A stretch of DNA of 64,000 bases from Arthrobacter sp. B1I2 (GTDB lineage Bacteria > Actinomycetota > Actinomycetes > Actinomycetales > Micrococcaceae), in assembly GCF_030816485.1 (NCBI RefSeq), contig NZ_JAUSYC010000001.1, positions 310,001 through 374,000 of the forward strand, written 5' to 3'. The translations under genes were made by a program, and so were the position numbers. Shown here in pieces: positions 48,674 to 58,462 of the stretch. Position 1 is the stretch's first letter, and every line of letters starts with the position of its first letter. The notes beneath the pieces are model-generated. The model was not told where the DNA came from, searched no databases, and saw only the letters and a list, made by a program, of their open reading frames with translations.

Positions 48674-49432
48674 ATGGCCTACATTGACCTCAACAGCGAC
48701 GTCGGGGAATCCTTTGGCAACTGGACCATGGGCGATGACGCAGCAATCTTCCGCTCGGTTTCCAGCGCCAACGTCGCCTGCGGCTTCCACGCCGGGGATC
48801 CGTCCACCATCGCCCGCACCTGCCGGGACGCCGTCGCGGCAGGCGTCGTCATCGGCGCGCACGTGGGCTACCGCGATCTTGCCGGCTTCGGCCGACGTTT
48901 CGTGGACTGCTCCGCTACCGAACTGGCGGATGATGTCCTCTACCAGCTGGGTGCCCTTAACGCACTTGCCGCCGCCGCGGGCGGCCGCATCCGCTACGTC
49001 AAACCGCACGGCGCCCTCTACAACACCATCGTCACGCACGAAACGCATGCCCAGGCCGTCGTGGACGCGGTCAAGGCCTTCGGCGGCGACCTGCCGCTGC
49101 TCCTGCTCCCCGGCTCCGTAGCCCTCGCCCGCGCCGAGGCGGCCGGGCTTCGCGGCGTGGCTGAAGCGTTCGCGGACCGCGCCTACAACCCTGACGGGAC
49201 CCTGGTCTCCCGGCGCGAAAGCGGCGCCGTCCTCCACGACGAGGACGCCGTCGCCGCCAACATGGTCCGGCTGGCCACCGAGGGGACCATCATTGCCCGC
49301 GACGGGTCCGCCATCAAGGCGGAAGCGGAGAGCATCTGCCTCCACGGCGACACCGCCGGCGCCGTTTCCATGGCCGCCGCGGTGCGGCGGGAACTGGAAG
49401 CCGCCGGCGTGGCAATCCGGAGCTTCGTGTGA
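48674..49432 (+). CDS. pxpA: 5-oxoprolinase subunit PxpA (LamB/YcsF family)
   Basis: 252-aa LamB/YcsF protein, one part of the prokaryotic ATP-dependent 5-oxoprolinase that opens 5-oxoproline to glutamate. It begins [20 protein letters not shown] and has [46 protein letters not shown] and [16 protein letters not shown], the conserved family blocks. It is the first gene of the operon; its stop overlaps the start of pxpBC (GTGA). Control by the GntR site at 48608 is likely. Confidence 0.96.
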
Positions 49433-51108
49433 GCTCCCCCCACATCCGCTGGGCCGGGCCCCGCGCCCTCCTCATCGAACTCGACTCCCTGGAAACGGTC
49501 CTGGCCGTCCACGCCCGTTTGCAGGAGACGCCCTTGCCCGGCCAGGTGGATGTCCTGGCCGCCGCACGGACCGTCCTGGCGGTTTTCGATTCGCGCGCCT
49601 CGGCACAGGCGGCCCGTGCCGCCGTTGCCATTATGGACAGGGAGACGGCCGCGGTGGACGCCGCCGGCGCCGATCCGGTCCGGATAGAGGTGGTATACGA
49701 CGGCGATGACCTCGCCGAAGTGGGCAGGCTTACCGGGCTGGGTGCCGACGGTGTGATCGCCGTGCACACCGGGCAGTTGTGGACAGCGGCGTTCGGTGGG
49801 TTCGCCCCCGGCTTCGCCTACCTGGTAGGCGAAACTGACGCATTGACTGTTCCGCGGCGCAGCTCGCCGCGGACCGCCGTTCCCGCCGGTTCCGTGGCCC
49901 TGGCCGGCAATTTCTCCGCTGTGTACCCGCGGCGCTCCCCCGGCGGCTGGCAGCTGATCGGACGCACTGCCGCCCGGATGTGGGACCTGGACCGTGAACA
50001 GCCTGCCTTGCTCCGGCCAGGGAGCACCGTCCGGTATGTCGCAGTGCGGGAAGTCGTGGAAGTCACCGAACCTGCCGGACAGCAGGGCAACCCTGCCGGC
50101 CGTGACATGGCCGCCGGCGCCCCCGCCCTGGAGATCATCACACCCGGCCCGCAGTCCCTCATCCAGGACCTTGGCCGTCCCGGCTTCGGTGACCTGGGCG
50201 TCTCCCCCGCAGGCGCTGCCGACGCCGCGGGCGCCCGCCAGGCGAACCGGCTGGTGGGGAACCTGCCGGGTGACGCCGTGCTCGAAACCGTTCTGGGCGG
50301 CCTGTCCGTACGTTCCCGCGGCGAACTGACAGCCGCACTCACCGGCGCCCCCGCGGAAGCCGAGATCCGGTCCGGAAGCGGCAGCCGCCCGGCCCCGATG
50401 TACGCCCCCTTCCCGCTGCACGACGGTGAGAGCCTCCACCTCGGCATGCCGGCGGCAGGCCTGCGCACTTACCTTGCCGTCCGCGGCGGAATTGACGTGC
50501 CCCCGGTGCTGGGCAGCAGGTCCACGGACCTGATGTCCGGGATCGGACCATCTCCGCTGGCCGCCGGAACCGTGCTGCCGGTCGGCCCCGCAGACCGGGG
50601 CCGCGTGGTGGGCCAGCCCGAACCGCCAACCCTGCATCCGGGCCTCAACCAGGGCGGGACCGGCAGCGCCCCGGTGGTGCTCCGCGTTACTCCCGGTCCC
50701 CGCGACGACTGGTTCACCCCGCAGTCCCTCGCGGCCCTGACCGGGCAGGACTGGACGGTCACCGCCGAGTCCAACCGGATCGGCGTGCGGCTGGATACAA
50801 CAGCTGGCCGGACGCCGCTGGAACGCTCACGGACAGAGGAACTGCCCAGCGAAGGCGTGGTCGCCGGCTCGCTGCAGGTGCCGCCGTCGGGCCTTCCCGT
50901 CCTCTTCCTCGCCGACCACCCTGTGACCGGCGGGTACCCCGTGATCGCCGTCGTCGTCCCGGAAGACCTGCCGGTGGCGGCGCAGCTTCCGCCCGGCGCC
51001 CTCATCCGTTTCCAGGCCGTGGATCCGGGGACTATGGAGCCGCTCCGGCCCGGGGCCCTGCAGCAGCCACAACCCACCACTCCCACGCCTGTCGCAAACA
51101 GCCTGTGA
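49429..51108 (+). CDS. Fused 5-oxoprolinase subunits PxpB-PxpC
   Basis: 559-aa fusion. Residues ~1-205 correspond to PxpB/KipI ([45 protein letters not shown]). After a short linker, residues ~230-545 correspond to PxpC/KipA ([75 protein letters not shown]). In many bacteria these are two genes. The same two domains form the carboxyltransferase part of urea carboxylase, notable since a biotin carboxylase gene follows with only 11 bp between stop and start. Confidence 0.94.
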
Positions 51109-51119
51109 AAGAAGCAGCC

Positions 51120-52874
51120 ATGAAAAAAGTCCTGATCGCCAACCGCGGCGAGATCGCCGTCCGGATCGCCCGCGCCTGCGCCGATGCGGGCCTGGCGTCC
51201 GTCGCCGTCTACTCGGATCCCGATGCCGATGCCCTGCACGTGCGCCTCAGCGACGAGGCCTACCCGCTGGACGGTTCCGCCAGTGCCGAGACCTACCTGA
51301 ACATCGAAAAGCTCCTTGCCGCGGCGACCCGCGCCGGCGCTGACGCCGTCCATCCCGGCTACGGCTTCCTGTCCGAGAACGCCGACTTCGCGCAGGCAGT
51401 GCTCGATGCCGGGCTCACCTGGGTGGGCCCGTCGCCGGAAGCCATCCGGAGCCTCGGCAACAAGGTGACCGCGCGGGAGATTGCCGTCCGCGCCGGTGCC
51501 CCGCTGGTCCCCGGGTCGGACGGACCTGTCGCGGACGCCGACGAGGTCCGGGCGTTTGCCGCACATCACGGCGTTCCGGTCGCCATCAAGGCGGCCTTCG
51601 GCGGCGGCGGCCGCGGCCTGAAGATCGCCTACCGGATGGAGGACATCGACGACGCGTTCGACTCCGCGGTGCGTGAGGCAACCGTAGCCTTCGGCCGCGG
51701 CGAATGCTTCGTGGAGCGCTTCCTGGACCGGCCCCGCCACGTCGAGGCCCAGGTCATCGCCGACACGCATGGAAACGTGGTGGTGGTGGGCACCCGCGAC
51801 TGCTCACTCCAGCGCCGCCACCAGAAGCTGGTGGAAGAAGCACCCGCACCGTTCCTCACACCGGAGCAGCGCAGCCGCATTCACGAGTCCGCCCGCGCCA
51901 TCTGCCGGGAAGCCGGCTACACCGGAGCCGGCACTGTGGAGTACCTGGTGGCACCTGACGGCGTCATCTCCTTCCTGGAGGTCAACACCCGCCTGCAGGT
52001 GGAACACCCGGTCACCGAGGAAACCTCCGGCATCGATCTGGTGCGCGAACAGTTCCGCATCGCCGCCGGCCTGCCGCTCTCCATCATGGAGGATCCCCAG
52101 CCCACCGGCCACGCCATCGAATTCCGGCTGAACGCCGAAGACGCCGGCCGCGGCTTCCTGCCCTCCCCCGGCCCCGTGGACGTTTTCGAAGCACCCACCG
52201 GCCCGGGCATCCGGGTCGACTCCGGGGTCCGGTCCGGCTCCGTCATCCCGGCCGAATACGACTCCCTGATGGCCAAGCTGATCGTCCGCGGCGAGGACCG
52301 GGCGCAGGCGCTGCGCCGTGCCCGTGCAGCATTGGACGAACTGCGGATCGAAGGCGTGCCCACGGTGGTCCCGTTCCACCGCGCCGTAGTGCGGGACCCG
52401 GATTTCACGGCACCGGACCGGCTGGGCGTCTACACCACATGGATTGAATCCGAGTTCTCCGGCCGGCTCGCGGCCTCACTGAAGAGCGGAATTGCCGGGC
52501 CCGTGGCGCGGCGCGAAACGCTCACCGTGGAAATCGACGGCAAGGCTGTCCAGCTGGGACTTCCGGCACAGGTTTATGCCGCACTGATGCACGGCGGCGG
52601 TGCGGCATCGCACCGCGCCCGGGAGGATGCCGACGGCGACCACGGCAGTGACGGCGCAGCCAACGGCAAGGTGACGGCACCGATGGGCGGCAACCTGGTC
52701 AAATGGCTGGCCGACGACGGCGCCGAAGTGGGTGCCGACCAGCCGCTCGCCATCGTTGAGGCGATGAAGATGGAAACCGTTGTTGCCGCTTCCGCGGCCG
52801 GCACCTTCCGCCGCGGTGAACAGGAACCGGGGGCCGTCGTCGTCCGTGGCGAAGTGCTGGGGACGGTCAGCTAA
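51120..52874 (+). CDS. Biotin carboxylase-BCCP protein (AccC/AccB fusion)
   Basis: 584-aa protein. Residues ~1-450 are biotin carboxylase: [20 protein letters not shown], the ATP-grasp glycine loop [13 protein letters not shown], and [15 protein letters not shown]. Residues ~510-583 are a biotinyl domain with EAMKMETV, K550 the predicted biotinylated Lys. No carboxyltransferase domain of acyl-CoA type is present here or next door. GTG 51105 overlapping the previous stop is an alternative start; ATG 51120 has AAAGAAG before it and gives the canonical N-terminus. In the operon it probably works with PxpBC as a split urea-carboxylase-like machine (inference). Confidence 0.93.
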
Positions 52875-52907: not shown

Positions 52908-53576
52908 ATGGACACCGGGACACACGGCGCTGCAGAACACGCGCACACCACGGCATGGATCGCCTCCGTGCTGCGGAGCCGCATCGCCGCGGGCGAACTG
53001 ACCCCCGGGTCAAAACTGTCCGAACAGGCGCTGTCCACCTCGCTGGGCGTTTCGCGCAATACCCTGCGGCAGGCCTTCACCATCCTTGCAGGCGAGTCCA
53101 TGGTCACGCGCATTCCCAACCGTGGCGTCTTTGTGGCGTCGCCTGGCGCGGAGGAGGTGCGTGAAATCTACCGCATCCGCCGCACCATCGAACCGGCAGC
53201 CGTGCTCTGGGGCGGGCTCTCGCCGAAGATCCTGGACGACATGGAAACCATCGTCCAGCGCGCCCAGGATGCCCGGAACGCCGGTTCCGTCACGGACATG
53301 GCAGACGCCAACCAGGCCCTCCACCGTGCGGTGGTGGGCCTGACGGGAAGCGCCACCCTGCAGGAGCTGATGGACCGCGTGCTCGCCGAAATGCGGCTGG
53401 TGTTCCATGCCATGGCGTCAGCCCCCGACTTCCATAGCCACTATGTGGAGCGCAATGTGGAGCTCGTGAAGCGGCTCCGCGCCGGCGAGCGGGAAGAAGC
53501 GGCGGCCGGGCTGCGCATTTACCTCGACGCGGCTGAAGCCGAACTGCTGGGGCACCTGGCCGGCACGGGGCACTGA
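52908..53576 (+). CDS. GntR-family (FadR-type) regulator of the pxp locus
   Basis: 222-aa regulator. The N-terminal winged helix (about residues 12-78) has LSEQALSTSLGVSRNTLRQA and RIPNRGVFVASP. The C-terminal all-helical FCD-type domain (EIYRIRRTIEPAAVL, ANQALHRAVVGLTGSATLQE) binds a carboxylate ligand through metal in relatives. It is the last gene of the pxpA-pxpBC-carboxylase operon; GGGGGG precedes ATG 52908. The three inverted repeats in front of the two divergent operons are its likely targets, and 5-oxoproline a plausible effector. Confidence 0.9.
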   Translation: MDTGTHGAAEHAHTTAWIASVLRSRIAAGELTPGSKLSEQALSTSLGVSRNTLRQAFTILAGESMVTRIPNRGVFVASPGAEEVREIYRIRRTIEPAAVLWGGLSPKILDDMETIVQRAQDARNAGSVTDMADANQALHRAVVGLTGSATLQELMDRVLAEMRLVFHAMASAPDFHSHYVERNVELVKRLRAGEREEAAAGLRIYLDAAEAELLGHLAGTGH

Positions 53577-53645: not shown

Positions 53646-54431
53646 TCAGGGAATCAGGTAATCGCTGTCCCTGGCGTCGGTAATGAGCATGTGGCCCGGC
53701 GCGTGGCCGATAGCCAGCGGCGGCCGGGACTGCATCACGGCAGCCTGCGGCGTGACTCCGCAAGCCCAGAACACCGGAATATGGCCGTCCGGAATGTCCA
53801 CGGCGTCACCAAAGTCCGGCCGGCCCAGGTCGCTGATGCCCAGTTCCTGCGGGTTGCCCACGTGCACCGGCGCGCCGTGCACGGCCGGGTAGCGGGACGT
53901 GATGCGCACCGCGTCGGCCACCTGCGAGGCGGGGACGGGGCGCATGGAGACCACCATCGGCCCGGACATGGCGCCTGCGGGGGCGCACTGGCGGTTGGTG
54001 CGGTACATCGGCACATTCACGCCCTGCTCGATGTGGGCTATGCCGATGCCGCCGTCCTGCAGGGCAGCCTCGAACGTGAAGGAACAGCCGATCAGGAACG
54101 TCACCAGGTCATCACGCCAGTGGCCGGTGATGTCGGTGGGCTCGTCTACTTTCTCCCCGTCGCGGTACACCGTGTACTTCGGCACGTCCGTGCGGATGTC
54201 CCCGCCGGCCAGCAGCGGGCCGCTGGTTTCGCCGGGCTCGAGGATACCCAGGATGGGGCAGGGCTTGGGATTGCGCTGGGCGAACAGCAGGAAATCGAAG
54301 GCGTGGTCCCGGGGAATGGCAAGGACGTTCGCCTGCGCGTAACCGCGGGACCAGCCCGACGTCGGTTCCACCAGCCCGCCGCGGAACGCTTCGCGCGCCG
54401 CAGCGGGGAGGATGCTGGAGCGGTCCATCAT
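53646..54431 (-). CDS. YcsI-like putative hydro-lyase (DUF1445)
   Basis: 261-aa member of the DUF1445/YcsI family (annotated as putative hydro-lyase or D-glutamate cyclase relatives). Conserved blocks: [51 protein letters not shown]-like [10 protein letters not shown], and [14 protein letters not shown]. In Bacillus subtilis ycsI lies beside the ycsF/kip genes, consistent with this location. A role in 5-oxoproline/glutamate metabolism is plausible. ATG 54431 overlaps the transporter stop by 4 bp; ATG 54428 is the alternative. Confidence 0.9.
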
Positions 54432-55657
54432 GCCCACAGCTTTGCCAGCCCCATGATCGAAGTCCAGCCGAGGAACACGGTGAGGATCCAGGCGGCGGTA
54501 CCGATCAGGAGCAGCCACTTGGGGTAGGCGTAACCCTGCATCAGATCGCGGCGGCGCCAGGCAACCCAGAGCAGGAGCGCAAAGCCCACCGGCAGGATCA
54601 GCCCGTTGAAAGCGCCGGCGAAGATCAGCAGCTGCTGGGGCGCCTGGCCGAGGAAGACGTACGCAATGGCGCAGCCGGCAATGAACGCGACGGTGATGAG
54701 ATTCCGCTTGCGCTCCGGTGTGCGGGAGGAGGTGATAAAGGAGACGGAGGTGAAGGCGGCGCCGATCACCGAGGTGATGGCAGCGGCCCAAAGGACCACA
54801 CCGAACATCCGGAGGCCGATTTCACCGGCGGCTGCGCCGAAGGCCTCGGCCGCCATGTTGTTGCTGGTGAGCACGGTCCCGCCGGCCACAACGCCGAGGA
54901 TGGCCAGGAAGAGCAGCACGCGCATCAGGCCGGTGGTCAGGATGCCCAGGATGGAGCTGCGGGTGATCTCCTTGACGTGCCGGATACCGGTGGCGCCGGA
55001 GTCGAGCATACGGTGGGCGCCGGCGTAGGTGATGTAGCCGCCCACGGTGCCGCCAACCAGGGTGGTGATGATGAGGAAGTCCACCTTCTCTGGAAGGATC
55101 GTGTTCTTCAGCGCCTCTCCCAGCGGCGGGGCCGCGACGATGGCCACGTAGATCATCAGCAGGATCATGACGGCGCCCAGCAGCACCACGATCCGGTCCA
55201 GCGCCATGCCGGCCTTCTTGCTGAGGAAGACCAGGATGGCGACGATGGCCGAGACGGCACCGCCCACCTTCGGATCCACACCCATCATTGCGTTGGCTCC
55301 GAGGCCGGTGCCGGCGATGTTTCCGATGTTGAAGACCACACCGCCAAGGAACACCAGGCCGGAGAGCAACCAGCCGACGCCCGGAAGGACCTTGTTGCCA
55401 AGCTCCTGTGCCCGGAGCCCGCTTACGCCGATAACCCGCCAGACATTCATTTGTACTGCGATGTCGATCAGGATCGAGGCCAGGATCGCGAAGGCGAACG
55501 CGGCCCCGATCTGGGCTGTGAACACCGTGGTCTGGGTGATGAAGCCCGGTCCGATGGCGCTGGTGGCCATGAGGAACATGGCGCCGAGAAGCGCCGTGCG
55601 CCGGGCGGAAGTGCTCAGGTTCAGTTTGATGCCGGGTTCTGCCATGGTTCCATCCAT
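54428..55657 (-). CDS. NRAMP-like transporter (YcsG type)
   Basis: 409-aa membrane protein with about eleven helices, related to NRAMP divalent-metal transporters but of the YcsG branch found with pxp/kip genes. It begins [20 protein letters not shown] and has [20 protein letters not shown] in helix 1, where true NRAMPs carry a DPGN metal motif; here it is GPGF, so a metal substrate is doubtful and an organic substrate such as 5-oxoproline is possible (inference). The promoter region contains two GntR-type repeats. Starts at ATG 55657 or 55645 are both possible. Confidence 0.9.
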
Positions 55658-55916: not shown

Positions 55917-57512
55917 ATGGCCGCGGTTACGGTGGATGACATCCTCTCGGATCTCCCCCTTGGCTTCGCCAGCCTCATCCTCCGGCCCGACCCTTCGGCG
56001 CCGGCCATTGAGCGGTTCCTGATTGTCGACGCCGACGATGAGGGAGTACACGCCGCCGGGGCGTTTGTCCTGCTCATCGGGGTCCGCGGCCGCTCTGCGC
56101 TGCCCGCCCTCCGGCGCCTCCTGGACAACCCTCCGCAGGTGGTGGCGGTAAAGGGCAACCGCGAAGACCTGGCCGAGGCGGAAGAACTCCTCGGCACAGC
56201 CGGTTCCGGACTCCTGCTGGTGGACCCTGCTGCTGACTGGGACCGCCTGCTCTCGATTGCCAAGGACCGGATCCAGCCGCGCAGCTACCAGAGCGAAGTG
56301 TTGACATTGCTCGAGGAAGACCTGTTCGCCATCGCCCAGACAACGGCCCGGCTGACCTCCAGCCACGTCCTGGTTGAGGATGCGGCCAATAAGGTCCTCG
56401 CCTACTCCACCGTGACCAACGACATCGATGAACTCCGGAAAGCTTCCATCCTGGCGCGCCGCGGTCCGCGGAAGTACGAACTGCTGCTCAAGGACCTCGG
56501 CGCCTACCGGGAGCTCCACCGCACCCGCCAGCCGGTCCGCGTACCCGCCCGGCCCCAGGACGGCCTGCGGGAACGGGTGGCCATCGCACTCTTCGCCGGC
56601 GAACGGATCATGGGTTACATCTGGCTGCAGGAAACCGGCGAGGGCTTCGGCCCGGACGTCGAATATGTGCTCACCGGGTCCGCGGCGCGGGTTTCCGCTG
56701 AGCTCATCCGCTACCGCAACCAGCAGTCCGTCCACATGCGGGAGGACAGGATCGCGCGGATCCTGTCCGGCCCGGCGGAAGCCGCCGCCAGCGCACACAG
56801 CGGCAAGATCCCGTCGGAGCGTCCCGCGGCCCTGCTGCTGATCGGGATGTCCGACGCCGATTCCCGGGCTGAAGACGCCGCGCTGAAGCACGGGGAGCTG
56901 GCCAATCTTGCTTCCATCCACGCCGCGGCCTACAAAGCGTCCGCCGTCGTCGGACAGTTCAATGGCGACACCGCCATCATCCTGCCGGACCTGCAGTCCG
57001 GCACGGCGGAAACGGGACTGCGCGCCCTCGCCGAAGCAATCGTCCGGGATGCCCGCAAACACCTCGGGATCACTCCGTCCGCCGCTGTGGGACCGTTGGT
57101 CCCGGACCTGCTGTCCATCCACACCGCCACCGGCATCACCGAAGCCCTGCTGGCCTGCGTGCGCGGCGCGGAGGACGGGTCAGTGGCCACAGTTGACGAC
57201 TTCGAAGCGGAAATCCTCTACCGCCAGGCGGTGGGCAACTTCCACGATGCACCTTTCCGGCACCGCAGCCTGGCTGCACTGCTGCACGGTGACGCCGAAC
57301 TTGCAACAACCCTGCAGGCATATTTCGACGCCTCCTTCGATGTCGCCGAATGCGCCAAACGGATGAACCTGCACAAGAACACCGTCTATTACCGCGTTGC
57401 CAAGGCTGTCCGGGTCACCGGCCTGGACTTCGGCAACCCCCGCGACTCTTTAGTGGCCCTGCTCCATCTTCAGGAGTGGGCCGCATCCAACGACAATCCA
57501 GGCAGGAAATGA
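55917..57512 (+). CDS. PucR/CdaR-type transcriptional regulator
   Basis: 531-aa regulator. The N-terminal PucR domain (about residues 5-125) starts VTVDDILSDLPLGFASLIL; a central GGDEF-like/unknown domain follows (~270-420); the C-terminal helix-turn-helix has CAKRMNLHKNTVYYRVAK. PucR-type proteins control use of nitrogen compounds. ATG 55917 has AAAAGGAAAA upstream. Its stop overlaps the glutaminase start (ATGA), so it likely controls its own operon of glutamine-related genes. Confidence 0.9.
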   Translation: MAAVTVDDILSDLPLGFASLILRPDPSAPAIERFLIVDADDEGVHAAGAFVLLIGVRGRSALPALRRLLDNPPQVVAVKGNREDLAEAEELLGTAGSGLLLVDPAADWDRLLSIAKDRIQPRSYQSEVLTLLEEDLFAIAQTTARLTSSHVLVEDAANKVLAYSTVTNDIDELRKASILARRGPRKYELLLKDLGAYRELHRTRQPVRVPARPQDGLRERVAIALFAGERIMGYIWLQETGEGFGPDVEYVLTGSAARVSAELIRYRNQQSVHMREDRIARILSGPAEAAASAHSGKIPSERPAALLLIGMSDADSRAEDAALKHGELANLASIHAAAYKASAVVGQFNGDTAIILPDLQSGTAETGLRALAEAIVRDARKHLGITPSAAVGPLVPDLLSIHTATGITEALLACVRGAEDGSVATVDDFEAEILYRQAVGNFHDAPFRHRSLAALLHGDAELATTLQAYFDASFDVAECAKRMNLHKNTVYYRVAKAVRVTGLDFGNPRDSLVALLHLQEWAASNDNPGRK

Positions 57513-58462
57513 GCACGACACTCAGCGCACCGCCCCTTGGCCTCCTCCTTGAGGACCTCGTCCGGCAGCATCGGCCGCGGAAGGAAACGGGTGCGGTACC
57601 CGGCAACATCCCCTTCCTGGCCAGCGTCCCTTTCGACCGGTTCGGGATAGCCGTCGCCACCACCTCCGGTGAAGTCTTTTGCTCCGGCGACGCCGACGTG
57701 CCCTTCTCCATCCAAAGCATCTCCAAAGTGTTCACCCTGGCCCTGGCGCTGCAGGGCAGCCGATCCGCCCGGCTGTGGTCACGGGTGCTGCGTGAACCGT
57801 CCGGAACAGCCTTCAACTCCCTGGTCCAGCTCGAAGCCGAGCACGGCATTCCGCGCAACCCCTTCATCAACGCCGGCGCCCTGGTGGTCACCGACCACCT
57901 GATGGAAGAGACGTCCGACGCCGCCGGGCAGCTCCTGCGGTTCCTCACCGAACAGGCGGGGGGCCAACAGTCCGGGCCGGGCAAGCAGGGCCCGTTCATT
58001 GACGGGGCGGCAGCAACCGGCGAACTGGCCTCCAGCAGCCGCAACCTTGCCCTGGCGCACTTCCTGAAGGACTTCGGTAACCTCGCGCAGCCTGCGGAAT
58101 CCGTGGTGGAAAACTACGTCCGCCAGTGCTCCATCATGATGACCTGCAGGGAGTTGGCCAGGGCTGGACTGTTCCTAGCCAACGACGGCCAGGGAGCGGC
58201 CGGCACGGTGTTGTCCCGCAGTGAGGCAAAGCGGATCGGTTCCATCATGCTGACCTGCGGCATGTACGACGCCGCCGGTGAATTCGCCTACCGTGTGGGC
58301 CTGCCCGGCAAGAGCGGGGTGGGCGGCGGCATCCTGGTCATCGTGCCGGGCCAGTGCGCCATCTGTGTCTGGAGCCCGCGCCTGGATGCGAAAGGCAATT
58401 CCCTCGCAGGTACCGCAGCCCTTGCCGACCTCTCCGACCGCACCGGCTGGTCAGTTTTCTAG
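57509..58462 (+). CDS. glsA: Glutaminase A
   Basis: 317-aa beta-lactamase-fold glutaminase hydrolysing glutamine to glutamate and ammonia. The catalytic Ser-x-x-Lys is S70-K73 in FSIQSISKVF; other blocks are EPSGTAFNSLVQLE, RNPFINAGALV, ENYVRQCSIMMTC and GLPGKSGVGGGI. No signal peptide, cytosolic. The ATG overlaps the PucR stop by 4 bp; a longer frame lies inside the regulator gene. It supplies glutamate beside the oxoprolinase locus. Confidence 0.96.
   Translation: MSTTLSAPPLGLLLEDLVRQHRPRKETGAVPGNIPFLASVPFDRFGIAVATTSGEVFCSGDADVPFSIQSISKVFTLALALQGSRSARLWSRVLREPSGTAFNSLVQLEAEHGIPRNPFINAGALVVTDHLMEETSDAAGQLLRFLTEQAGGQQSGPGKQGPFIDGAAATGELASSSRNLALAHFLKDFGNLAQPAESVVENYVRQCSIMMTCRELARAGLFLANDGQGAAGTVLSRSEAKRIGSIMLTCGMYDAAGEFAYRVGLPGKSGVGGGILVIVPGQCAICVWSPRLDAKGNSLAGTAALADLSDRTGWSVF

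Follow-up and report, generated by a model that had tools for sequence, protein, structure and literature searches.

A pxpA, pxpBC and biotin carboxylase gene cluster in Arthrobacter sp. B1I2 as a candidate split, urea-carboxylase-like enzyme for 5-oxoproline

5-Oxoproline arises spontaneously from glutamate and glutamine, and we consider here how its ring might be opened by a gene cluster of Arthrobacter sp. B1I2, in which pxpA, a fused pxpB-pxpC gene (pxpBC) and a gene for a biotin carboxylase (BC) joined to a biotin carboxyl carrier protein (BCCP) follow one another. The cluster lies in a stretch of 64,000 nucleotides (assembly GCF_030816485.1, contig NZ_JAUSYC010000001.1, positions 310,001 to 374,000 of the forward strand), which we call the window and in whose own numbering its features are given. 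Two described systems are closest to it. The first is urea carboxylase, which converts urea to allophanate, the latter then being split by a hydrolase; the second is the PxpABC 5-oxoprolinase (E. coli YbgJKL, B. subtilis YcsF-KipIA, C. glutamicum pxpTABC), with which the window shares both the PxpA family and the carboxyltransferase (CT) domains. PxpABC was assigned as a 5-oxoproline enzyme in 2017 (Niehaus et al., cited in PMC13274462), and the accessible part of PMC13274462 describes these systems as ATP-dependent and leaves a biotin step unmentioned there. The same part of that paper places the C. glutamicum transporter PxpT in the Nramp family, as YcsG-like, states that PxpT/YcsG is needed to use 5-oxoproline, and presents the pxp repressor PxpR as a GntR-type 5-oxoproline sensor. 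In S. aureus, according to the available portion of PMC11315280, a six-gene operon holds pxpB, pxpC, pxpA, accB and accC, so that BC and BCCP genes stand together with pxpABC as they do in the window, although PxpB/PxpC and BCCP/BC are separate genes there and accB/accC are filed under fatty-acid synthesis, unlinked to the 5-oxoprolinase. Finally, the accessible text of Lombard and Moreira 2011 (PMC3199775) points out that certain bacteria and the Thermococcales have split 'UCT' genes, for which functional data were unavailable.

In the window, the three genes are consecutive on the plus strand with overlapping or 11-bp junctions, exactly as a preliminary description of this DNA had claimed, and both the coordinates and the Pfam domains agree with it. 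The first, pxpA (48674..49432, 252 aa, LamB/YcsF family), scores 328 bits with PF03746 and 354 bits with the PxpA subfamily model NF003814 (cut-off 226), and it overlaps by 4 bp the fused pxpB-pxpC (49429..51108, GTG start, 559 aa), whose single chain carries CT_C_D (PF02682, 189 bits) at residues 5-195 and CT_A_B (PF02626, 281 bits) at residues 256-529. The third gene (51120..52874, 584 aa) encodes an AccA3-type biotin carboxylase-BCCP with the Pfam domains Biotin_carb_N, CPSase_L_D2, Biotin_carb_C and Biotin_lipoyl; it might begin at GTG 51105, with a 4-bp overlap with pxpBC, or at ATG 51120, after an 11-bp gap, and we prefer the latter because its N-terminal reading aligns with the N-terminus of E. 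coli AccC. All four modules of urea carboxylase (BC, CT_A_B, CT_C_D and BCCP) are present, spread over two genes. The differences are that urea carboxylase is one chain, BC-CT_A_B-CT_C_D-BCCP, whereas the window has two chains with CT_C_D before CT_A_B, and that the partner here is PxpA rather than allophanate hydrolase. The premise of the earlier account, that the CT half of urea carboxylase is homologous to KipI/KipA and sits between BC and BCCP, can be seen directly in this genome's own urea carboxylase (L045), a protein of 1300 aa with just that domain order.

Family models place the two larger proteins between the described systems. PxpBC passes the broad TIGR00724 (261.5 bits, cut-off 230.2) and falls below the equivalog cut-offs for PxpB and PxpC (TIGR00370, 126.2 against 145.55; NF045499, 174.3 against 500), so that it differs from the known PxpABC systems in missing these as well as in being fused; E. 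coli pxpBCA differs from the window, in addition, in that only the latter has a BC-BCCP gene in the cluster. The urea carboxylase model TIGR02712 (cut-off 1303.85) is reached neither by PxpBC (154.2 bits) nor by BC-BCCP (511.1 bits). A search of PDB sequences with PxpBC finds solved PxpB/PxpC-like chains and, in urea carboxylase 3va7 and urea amidolyase 5i8i, the K. lactis representatives of that family, the CT_A_B portion. For BC-BCCP, all 13 positions checked, which we chose as presumably those that matter for biotin carboxylase, are identical to E. coli AccC, and the biotin motif EAMKM is kept, residue 550 being its lysine, so that, judged from its residues, the protein looks active as a biotin carboxylase. 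With the AccA3-like protein that this genome encodes at C1:3924158 it shares 57% identity, and it has the look of an AccA3 copy set aside for a purpose of its own, AccA3 being the BC-BCCP of actinobacteria that is otherwise common to several acyl-CoA carboxylases. BC and BCCP in one chain and kinship with AccA3 by Pfam, tree and alignment all fit that assignment; there is no CoA-carboxyltransferase partner beside the gene, which lowers the case for it and still leaves it standing, since the partner of an AccA3 need not adjoin.

What might such a set of proteins do? We think it probable, if far from certain, that the cluster encodes a split biotin enzyme akin to urea carboxylase, by which 5-oxoproline is N-carboxylated and so made ready for hydrolysis by PxpA. 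At the expense of ATP and bicarbonate, the BC domain would load the biotin on its own BCCP domain with a carboxyl group, which PxpBC, proposed from its sequence to be the carboxyltransferase, would pass on to the nitrogen in the ring of 5-oxoproline; the product, N-carboxy-5-oxoproline, corresponds among lactams to allophanate. N-carboxylation would activate the lactam carbonyl, PxpA, the proposed hydrolase of the activated lactam, would hydrolyse the ring, and the resulting N-carboxyglutamate would lose CO2 to give glutamate, with bicarbonate acting catalytically and one ATP being spent. Not all of this is equally firm. A split biotin-dependent enzyme is well supported by recurring linkage, and we argue for it from the modules, their integrity, their repeated association and the deposition of related proteins with AccA3 in PDB entry 9yx5 (below). 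We infer that PxpBC is the partner of this particular BC-BCCP, that 5-oxoproline is what they act on and that the chemistry runs in this order; the carboxylation of 5-oxoproline and the action of PxpA on the carboxylated form are suggested by the neighbours (PxpA, a PxpT-like transporter, GntR and YcsI) and by analogy with urea carboxylase.

The handling of ATP is where this proposal and the conventional one part company. No ATP-binding Pfam family is found at E 0.001 in PxpA, PxpB or PxpC, the only one in the cluster sitting in BC, and E. coli PxpA, PxpB and PxpC likewise match only LamB_YcsF, CT_C_D and CT_A_B. The PxpB/PxpC domains therefore offer no explanation of ATP use, and if these proteins are carboxyltransferases then ATP would enter via the biotin carboxylase. 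This is awkward for the conventional alternative, an ATP-only 5-oxoprolinase in which PxpBC phosphorylates the substrate, PxpA opens it, and BC-BCCP is simply the alpha subunit of an acyl-CoA carboxylase that happens to share the operon while its CoA-carboxyltransferase (CoA-CT) is encoded elsewhere. On present evidence we consider that account quite improbable, although the kinship of BC-BCCP with AccA3, which serves CoA-CTs, speaks for it.

The genome itself gives a first view of how biotin carboxylases are distributed. No acyl-CoA carboxyltransferase (PF01039) is found within the window, and of the three in the whole genome the nearest, at C1:837206, is about 463 kb from the window's edge, so that the earlier observation of none nearby holds. 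Against these three there are six BC matches: two near a CoA-CT (3800034 adjoins 3801562, and 3925151 lies about 10 kb from 3913581), one in a frame of 1161 aa, which we take from its size to be pyruvate carboxylase, one in L045, and two beside CT_A_B genes with no CoA-CT, namely the window locus and L073 (G000:C1:4265000-4282000). L073 is a second biotin-linked pxp set, in the order pxpA-BCCP-BC-pxpB-pxpC; its neighbours are a PucR regulator, an asparaginase, an amino-acid permease and an aminotransferase. Two further pxpABC loci, L090 and L091, are close to each other and divergent, and have no BC within the stretch examined; both adjoin dehydrogenases, and L091 transporters as well. That a single genome should have four pxp sets points to several substrates. 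Together with the urea carboxylase, they are one argument for a further alternative, to which we return with the neighbouring genes, that the enzyme is indeed a biotin-dependent carboxylase whose main substrate is something other than 5-oxo-L-proline.

To what extent does the pairing recur? An even draw of 198 genomes from the phylum contained 49 with CT_A_B, whose 65 match rows make up 60 loci including the window. Six of these are urea carboxylases and four are CT-only proteins with their domains in urea-carboxylase order; of the remaining 50, which are of PxpB/PxpC type, 16 have a BC in reach and no CoA-CT, where 1.8% would be expected from the BC density of the window's genome, a figure that ignores shared descent. 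Two more of the 50 have a BCCP at a contig end. A CoA-CT stands beside just one of the 17 BC-linked loci (L061, whose BC groups with AccA3), which speaks against an acyl-CoA carboxylase subunit that just happens to lie there. The gene orders vary, and include pxpB-pxpC-pxpA-BCCP with a divergent BC, pxpB-pxpC-BCCP-BC-ycsI-pxpA, pxpA-pxpBC-BC/BCCP and pxpA-BCCP-BC-pxpB-pxpC. Thirteen genomes of the draw have no BC match, and two of these have CT_A_B: G064, which is 62% complete, and G103 (94%), where it belongs to a CT-only protein. The four CT-only proteins (L047, L064, L075 and L081) have CT_A_B and then CT_C_D as in urea carboxylase, with no BC or BCCP domain in frame. They may borrow BC-BCCP in trans; G103, the holder of L081, has no BC match in its genome.

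Within the order, an even draw of 79 genomes was searched for PxpBC relatives at E 1e-60 and for AccA3-like proteins at E 1e-150, which were found in 43 and 67 genomes, respectively. Exactly nine genomes have two AccA3-like proteins, and in all nine, which belong to three families, the extra copy is beside pxpC: in eight it adjoins pxpBC by coordinates, and in the ninth (G209) the locus is cut by contig ends and shows pxpC and then BC-BCCP. This position of the additional AccA3-like copy speaks against the ATP-only account. Fourteen unlinked loci with PxpBC in one frame (L233-L243, L246, L247 and L086 of G085) have no BC in the stretch examined, and each of these genomes has an AccA3-like protein elsewhere, making them natural test cases for borrowing in trans; the other 20 unlinked genomes were judged by the AccA3-like search alone, which would miss a BC unlike AccA3. 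An AccA3-like protein is present in 43 of 43 genomes with PxpBC versus 24 of 36 others (Fisher p 2e-5), and none of the 12 genomes without one has a PxpBC relative, a co-occurrence that is positive in the order, is not seen in the phylum, and is confounded by lineage and genome size.

Beyond the phylum we drew on matches from a scan of genome_contigs, on 21 plasmid loci hand-picked for variety from 742 records, and on papers. The scan used six PxpC sequences, and we considered the best 80 of 571 relatives, a set biased towards window-like PxpC that includes Pseudomonas, Variovorax, Paracidovorax, Acidovorax and Comamonas; among these 80, a BC stands beside fused PxpBC in 56 of 62 cases and beside split genes in 1 of 18, the PxpB of that one being cut off by a contig end. 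Of the plasmid loci, which include Paracoccus, L. plantarum, Rhizobium, Shinella and the archaea Haladaptatus and Natrinema, 12 have a BC, one has BCCP only and eight have neither. The BCCP-only case, on a Thermomicrobium roseum plasmid (L198), reads BCCP-pxpB-pxpC-pxpA and continues, in the same run, with the biotin transporter gene bioY. A search for such neighbours had been proposed at the outset as a check on the idea, and the pairing does recur, in Actinomycetota, in Pseudomonadota, on one Bacillota plasmid and on two Halobacteria plasmids, with BCCP alone on the Thermomicrobiota plasmid; a lack of conserved neighbours, named at the outset among the findings that would refute the idea, is thereby excluded. 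BC or BCCP beside pxp in several clades, several gene orders and two domains of life is a further difficulty for the ATP-only account. The motif E-x-MK is found in the BC or BCCP frame of 78 of 87 linked loci, the other nine comprising four with GVMK, one with DAMKM and four with no MK in the frame found.

Two plasmid loci deserve a word of their own. In L195, on a Rhizobium leguminosarum plasmid, two annotated BCCP genes flank accC before pxpB-pxpC-pxpA, and our scan recognised one of the two as BCCP. In L039, on a Klebsiella pneumoniae plasmid, the run nramp-pxpA-ycsI-pxpBC is followed by a BC frame that is missing from the gene table; an IS1 transposase lies close by, and the locus has another BC/BCCP-like gene at its edge.

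A rather different line of evidence comes from the PDB, where the search with PxpBC led to chains V and W of entry 9yx5 ('Allophanate hydrolase subunit 2' and '1'), which barely differ from 3mml. Listed under 9yx5 as well is an AccA3 chain, with which the window's BC-BCCP aligns over residues 2-582. PxpB/PxpC-like proteins are, then, deposited in one entry with AccA3, as known here from chain names and sequences alone, and we take the proteins to be mycobacterial. No PxpA relative from 9yx5 is among the matches listed. Such a deposition sits uneasily with PxpBC acting independently of biotin. There is also a difference from the window: AccA3 comes in 9yx5 with two beta chains, whereas the window's BC-BCCP is a second, operon-borne copy.

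How the linked and unlinked forms are related was approached with trees of PxpC (115 rows) and BC (93 rows), which are quick trees with long branches and uncertain deep joins. In the PxpC tree, where three BCCP-only rows were counted as BC-linked and loci added later from the order sample were left out, the BC-linked label needs 9 changes, of which starred branches force at least 6, and 500 shuffles never gave a number as low. Linked rows fall in a fused clade (37 rows, 32 BC-linked, support 97), in one that joins family f23 to L. plantarum (6 rows, support 97) and in a group neighbouring urea carboxylase, with f15, the archaea and L073 among its members (14 rows, support 99); the others are T. 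roseum, beside urea carboxylase, and one Rhizobium. In the BC tree, the BCs beside fused PxpBC, including those of Pseudomonadota, group with actinobacterial AccA3-like proteins (54 rows, SH-aLRT 99), as the window's own does. An origin from a broken urea carboxylase was considered and dropped, given that the CT halves are reversed, PxpC falls in a different clade and BC goes with AccA3. Distance correlations in the fused linked set are 0.80 for PxpC-BC, 0.80 for PxpC-PxpA and 0.83 for PxpA-BC, and therefore speak of joint inheritance and not of contact.

We also looked for alignment columns in which one residue is common to the fused linked, f23-type, urea-carboxylase-neighbour and urea-carboxylase/CT-only groups. 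At a threshold of 85%, 29 columns of PxpC are of this kind, and both the unlinked group, by its commonest residue, and E. coli agree in 29 of 29; PxpB has 12 at 80%, with agreement in 12 of 12 for the unlinked group and in 9 of 12 for E. coli. These columns give no sign that the mechanism changes. No switch residues between linked and unlinked PxpC were found, the one column that passed a loose filter not being group-specific. Since these CT signature columns, which urea carboxylase has too, are alike in linked and unlinked PxpB and PxpC, the unlinked forms may be biotin-dependent as well. Either they borrow BC and BCCP, or the common residues serve an amide-binding step and ATP is handled otherwise. 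This leads to a broader idea, which we put forward tentatively and would at present doubt a little more than believe, that PxpABC is biotin-dependent in general, N-carboxylating 5-oxoproline, with PxpBC borrowing AccA3 or AccB-AccC where the operon has no BC/BCCP of its own. It also means that the wording of the first account, in which the enzyme works 'instead of, or beside' the ATP-only oxoprolinase, needs qualifying, because it presumes a separate ATP-only form and yet the CT columns are alike in both sets. Its central proposal of a split biotin-dependent enzyme has fared better, with neighbour conservation and the presence of AccA3 in 9yx5 on its side, even if such a neighbour is missing at most of the sampled PxpBC loci (31 of 50 loci for the phylum, 34 of 43 genomes for the order).

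That last point belongs to a set of results that weigh against our preferred reading of a split carboxylase for 5-oxoproline and that should be taken together. Three of the 31 unlinked phylum loci are cut by contig ends; at the others, as at E. coli K-12 pxpBCA, there is no linked BC, and those 34 order genomes have no AccA3-like neighbour, which speaks for the ATP-only account. Even where loci of the order have PxpB and PxpC in a single frame, a BC is present at just 8 of 22, a proportion that led us to reject the rule, drawn from 56 of 62, that a fused PxpBC has a BC beside it; the higher rate reflects the choice of close relatives of the window. In the phylum sample, the presence of CT_A_B is not associated with that of BC (47 of 49 versus 138 of 149 genomes, p 0.53). 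C. glutamicum uses pxpTABC to grow on 5-oxoproline, and PxpBC is assumed to phosphorylate it (both from the accessible part of PMC13274462), as the ATP-only account also holds. Lastly, 9yx5 contains two 'Propionyl-CoA carboxylase beta chain' proteins (example chains D5a and D4a), which we take as AccD5 and AccD4. PxpB/PxpC-like chains beside AccA3 and two beta chains could be regulatory, and one could imagine, KipI/KipA having been named for an inhibitor role, that BC-BCCP docks on PxpBC for some purpose other than carboxylation, for instance to supply carboxyphosphate or to regulate flux between fatty acids and 5-oxoproline. We regard this as highly improbable in view of the intact BC positions and biotin motif in the window, the E-x-MK motif in most linked loci, and the split forms, which keep separate BC and BCCP genes together.

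Why should one care? If the split-carboxylase proposal is true, there is a second way of activating lactams for hydrolysis, by N-carboxylation as with urea, and a pathway of catabolism is coupled to biotin, to bicarbonate and, where AccA3 is common to both, to lipid synthesis. If PxpABC is biotin-dependent generally, the assumed phosphorylation by PxpBC would be wrong, and many prokaryotes would hold an unrecognised amide carboxylase that uses the biotin subunit of fatty-acid synthesis. Our interest is accordingly high, as the question bears on how a widespread enzyme works and can be tested by standard enzymology. As to priority, no proposal of a biotin-dependent 5-oxoprolinase was found in titles and abstracts of the open-licence literature, for the most part the beginnings of abstracts, nor an open-licence paper joining YcsF with biotin carboxylase; the depositors of 9yx5 may already have the idea of a biotin enzyme, and we claim novelty with care.

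The question of substrate brings us to the genes around the cluster. Directly downstream of BC-BCCP is a GntR/FCD regulator (52908..53576, plus strand; Pfam GntR and FCD), followed on the minus strand by a YcsI-type putative hydro-lyase (53646..54431; D-Glu_cyclase in Pfam, PF07286 227 bits; NF003969 408 bits, cut-off 324) and an Nramp-fold transporter (54428..55657; PF01566 83.5 bits). The transporter has no NCBIfam match, and by fold and context it is a candidate PxpT/YcsG-like importer of 5-oxoproline. An Nramp-fold transporter and a GntR regulator also accompany the C. glutamicum pxp genes in the accessible description of that system, and the neighbourhood therefore points to 5-oxoproline. 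This argues, as does a PxpA that reaches its subfamily cut-off, against the alternative that the carboxylase acts mainly on some other cyclic or small amide, be it 5-oxo-D-proline, a hydantoin-like compound or an amino-acid amide. We find it rather unlikely, although besides the several pxp loci of the genome it can draw on the missed PxpB/PxpC equivalog cut-offs and on the YcsI/D-Glu-cyclase gene beside the cluster. YcsI is found with many pxp clusters and could handle 5-oxo-D-proline.

Some smaller observations may be added. The classical 5-oxoprolinase of P. putida is reported, in the available text of PMC8453981, to consist of a component A with chains of 64 and 51 kDa, which forms a hexamer of dimers and hydrolyses ATP in dependence on oxoproline, and a component B of 82 kDa. 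For four Pseudomonas loci, with guessed starts, we predict 60.5-61.9 kDa for BC-BCCP, 55.8-60.0 kDa for PxpBC and 79.5-80.8 kDa for three PxpA proteins, sizes that would roughly fit components A and B and that we treat as a lead only; no match named P. putida is among 120 listed relatives of the Pseudomonas PxpBC. A single short match from a scan of viral sequences with BC-BCCP was not used. Back in the window, beyond a PucR-type regulator, positions 57350-58462 hold a frame that we take, from the appearance of its sequence, to be glutaminase-like.

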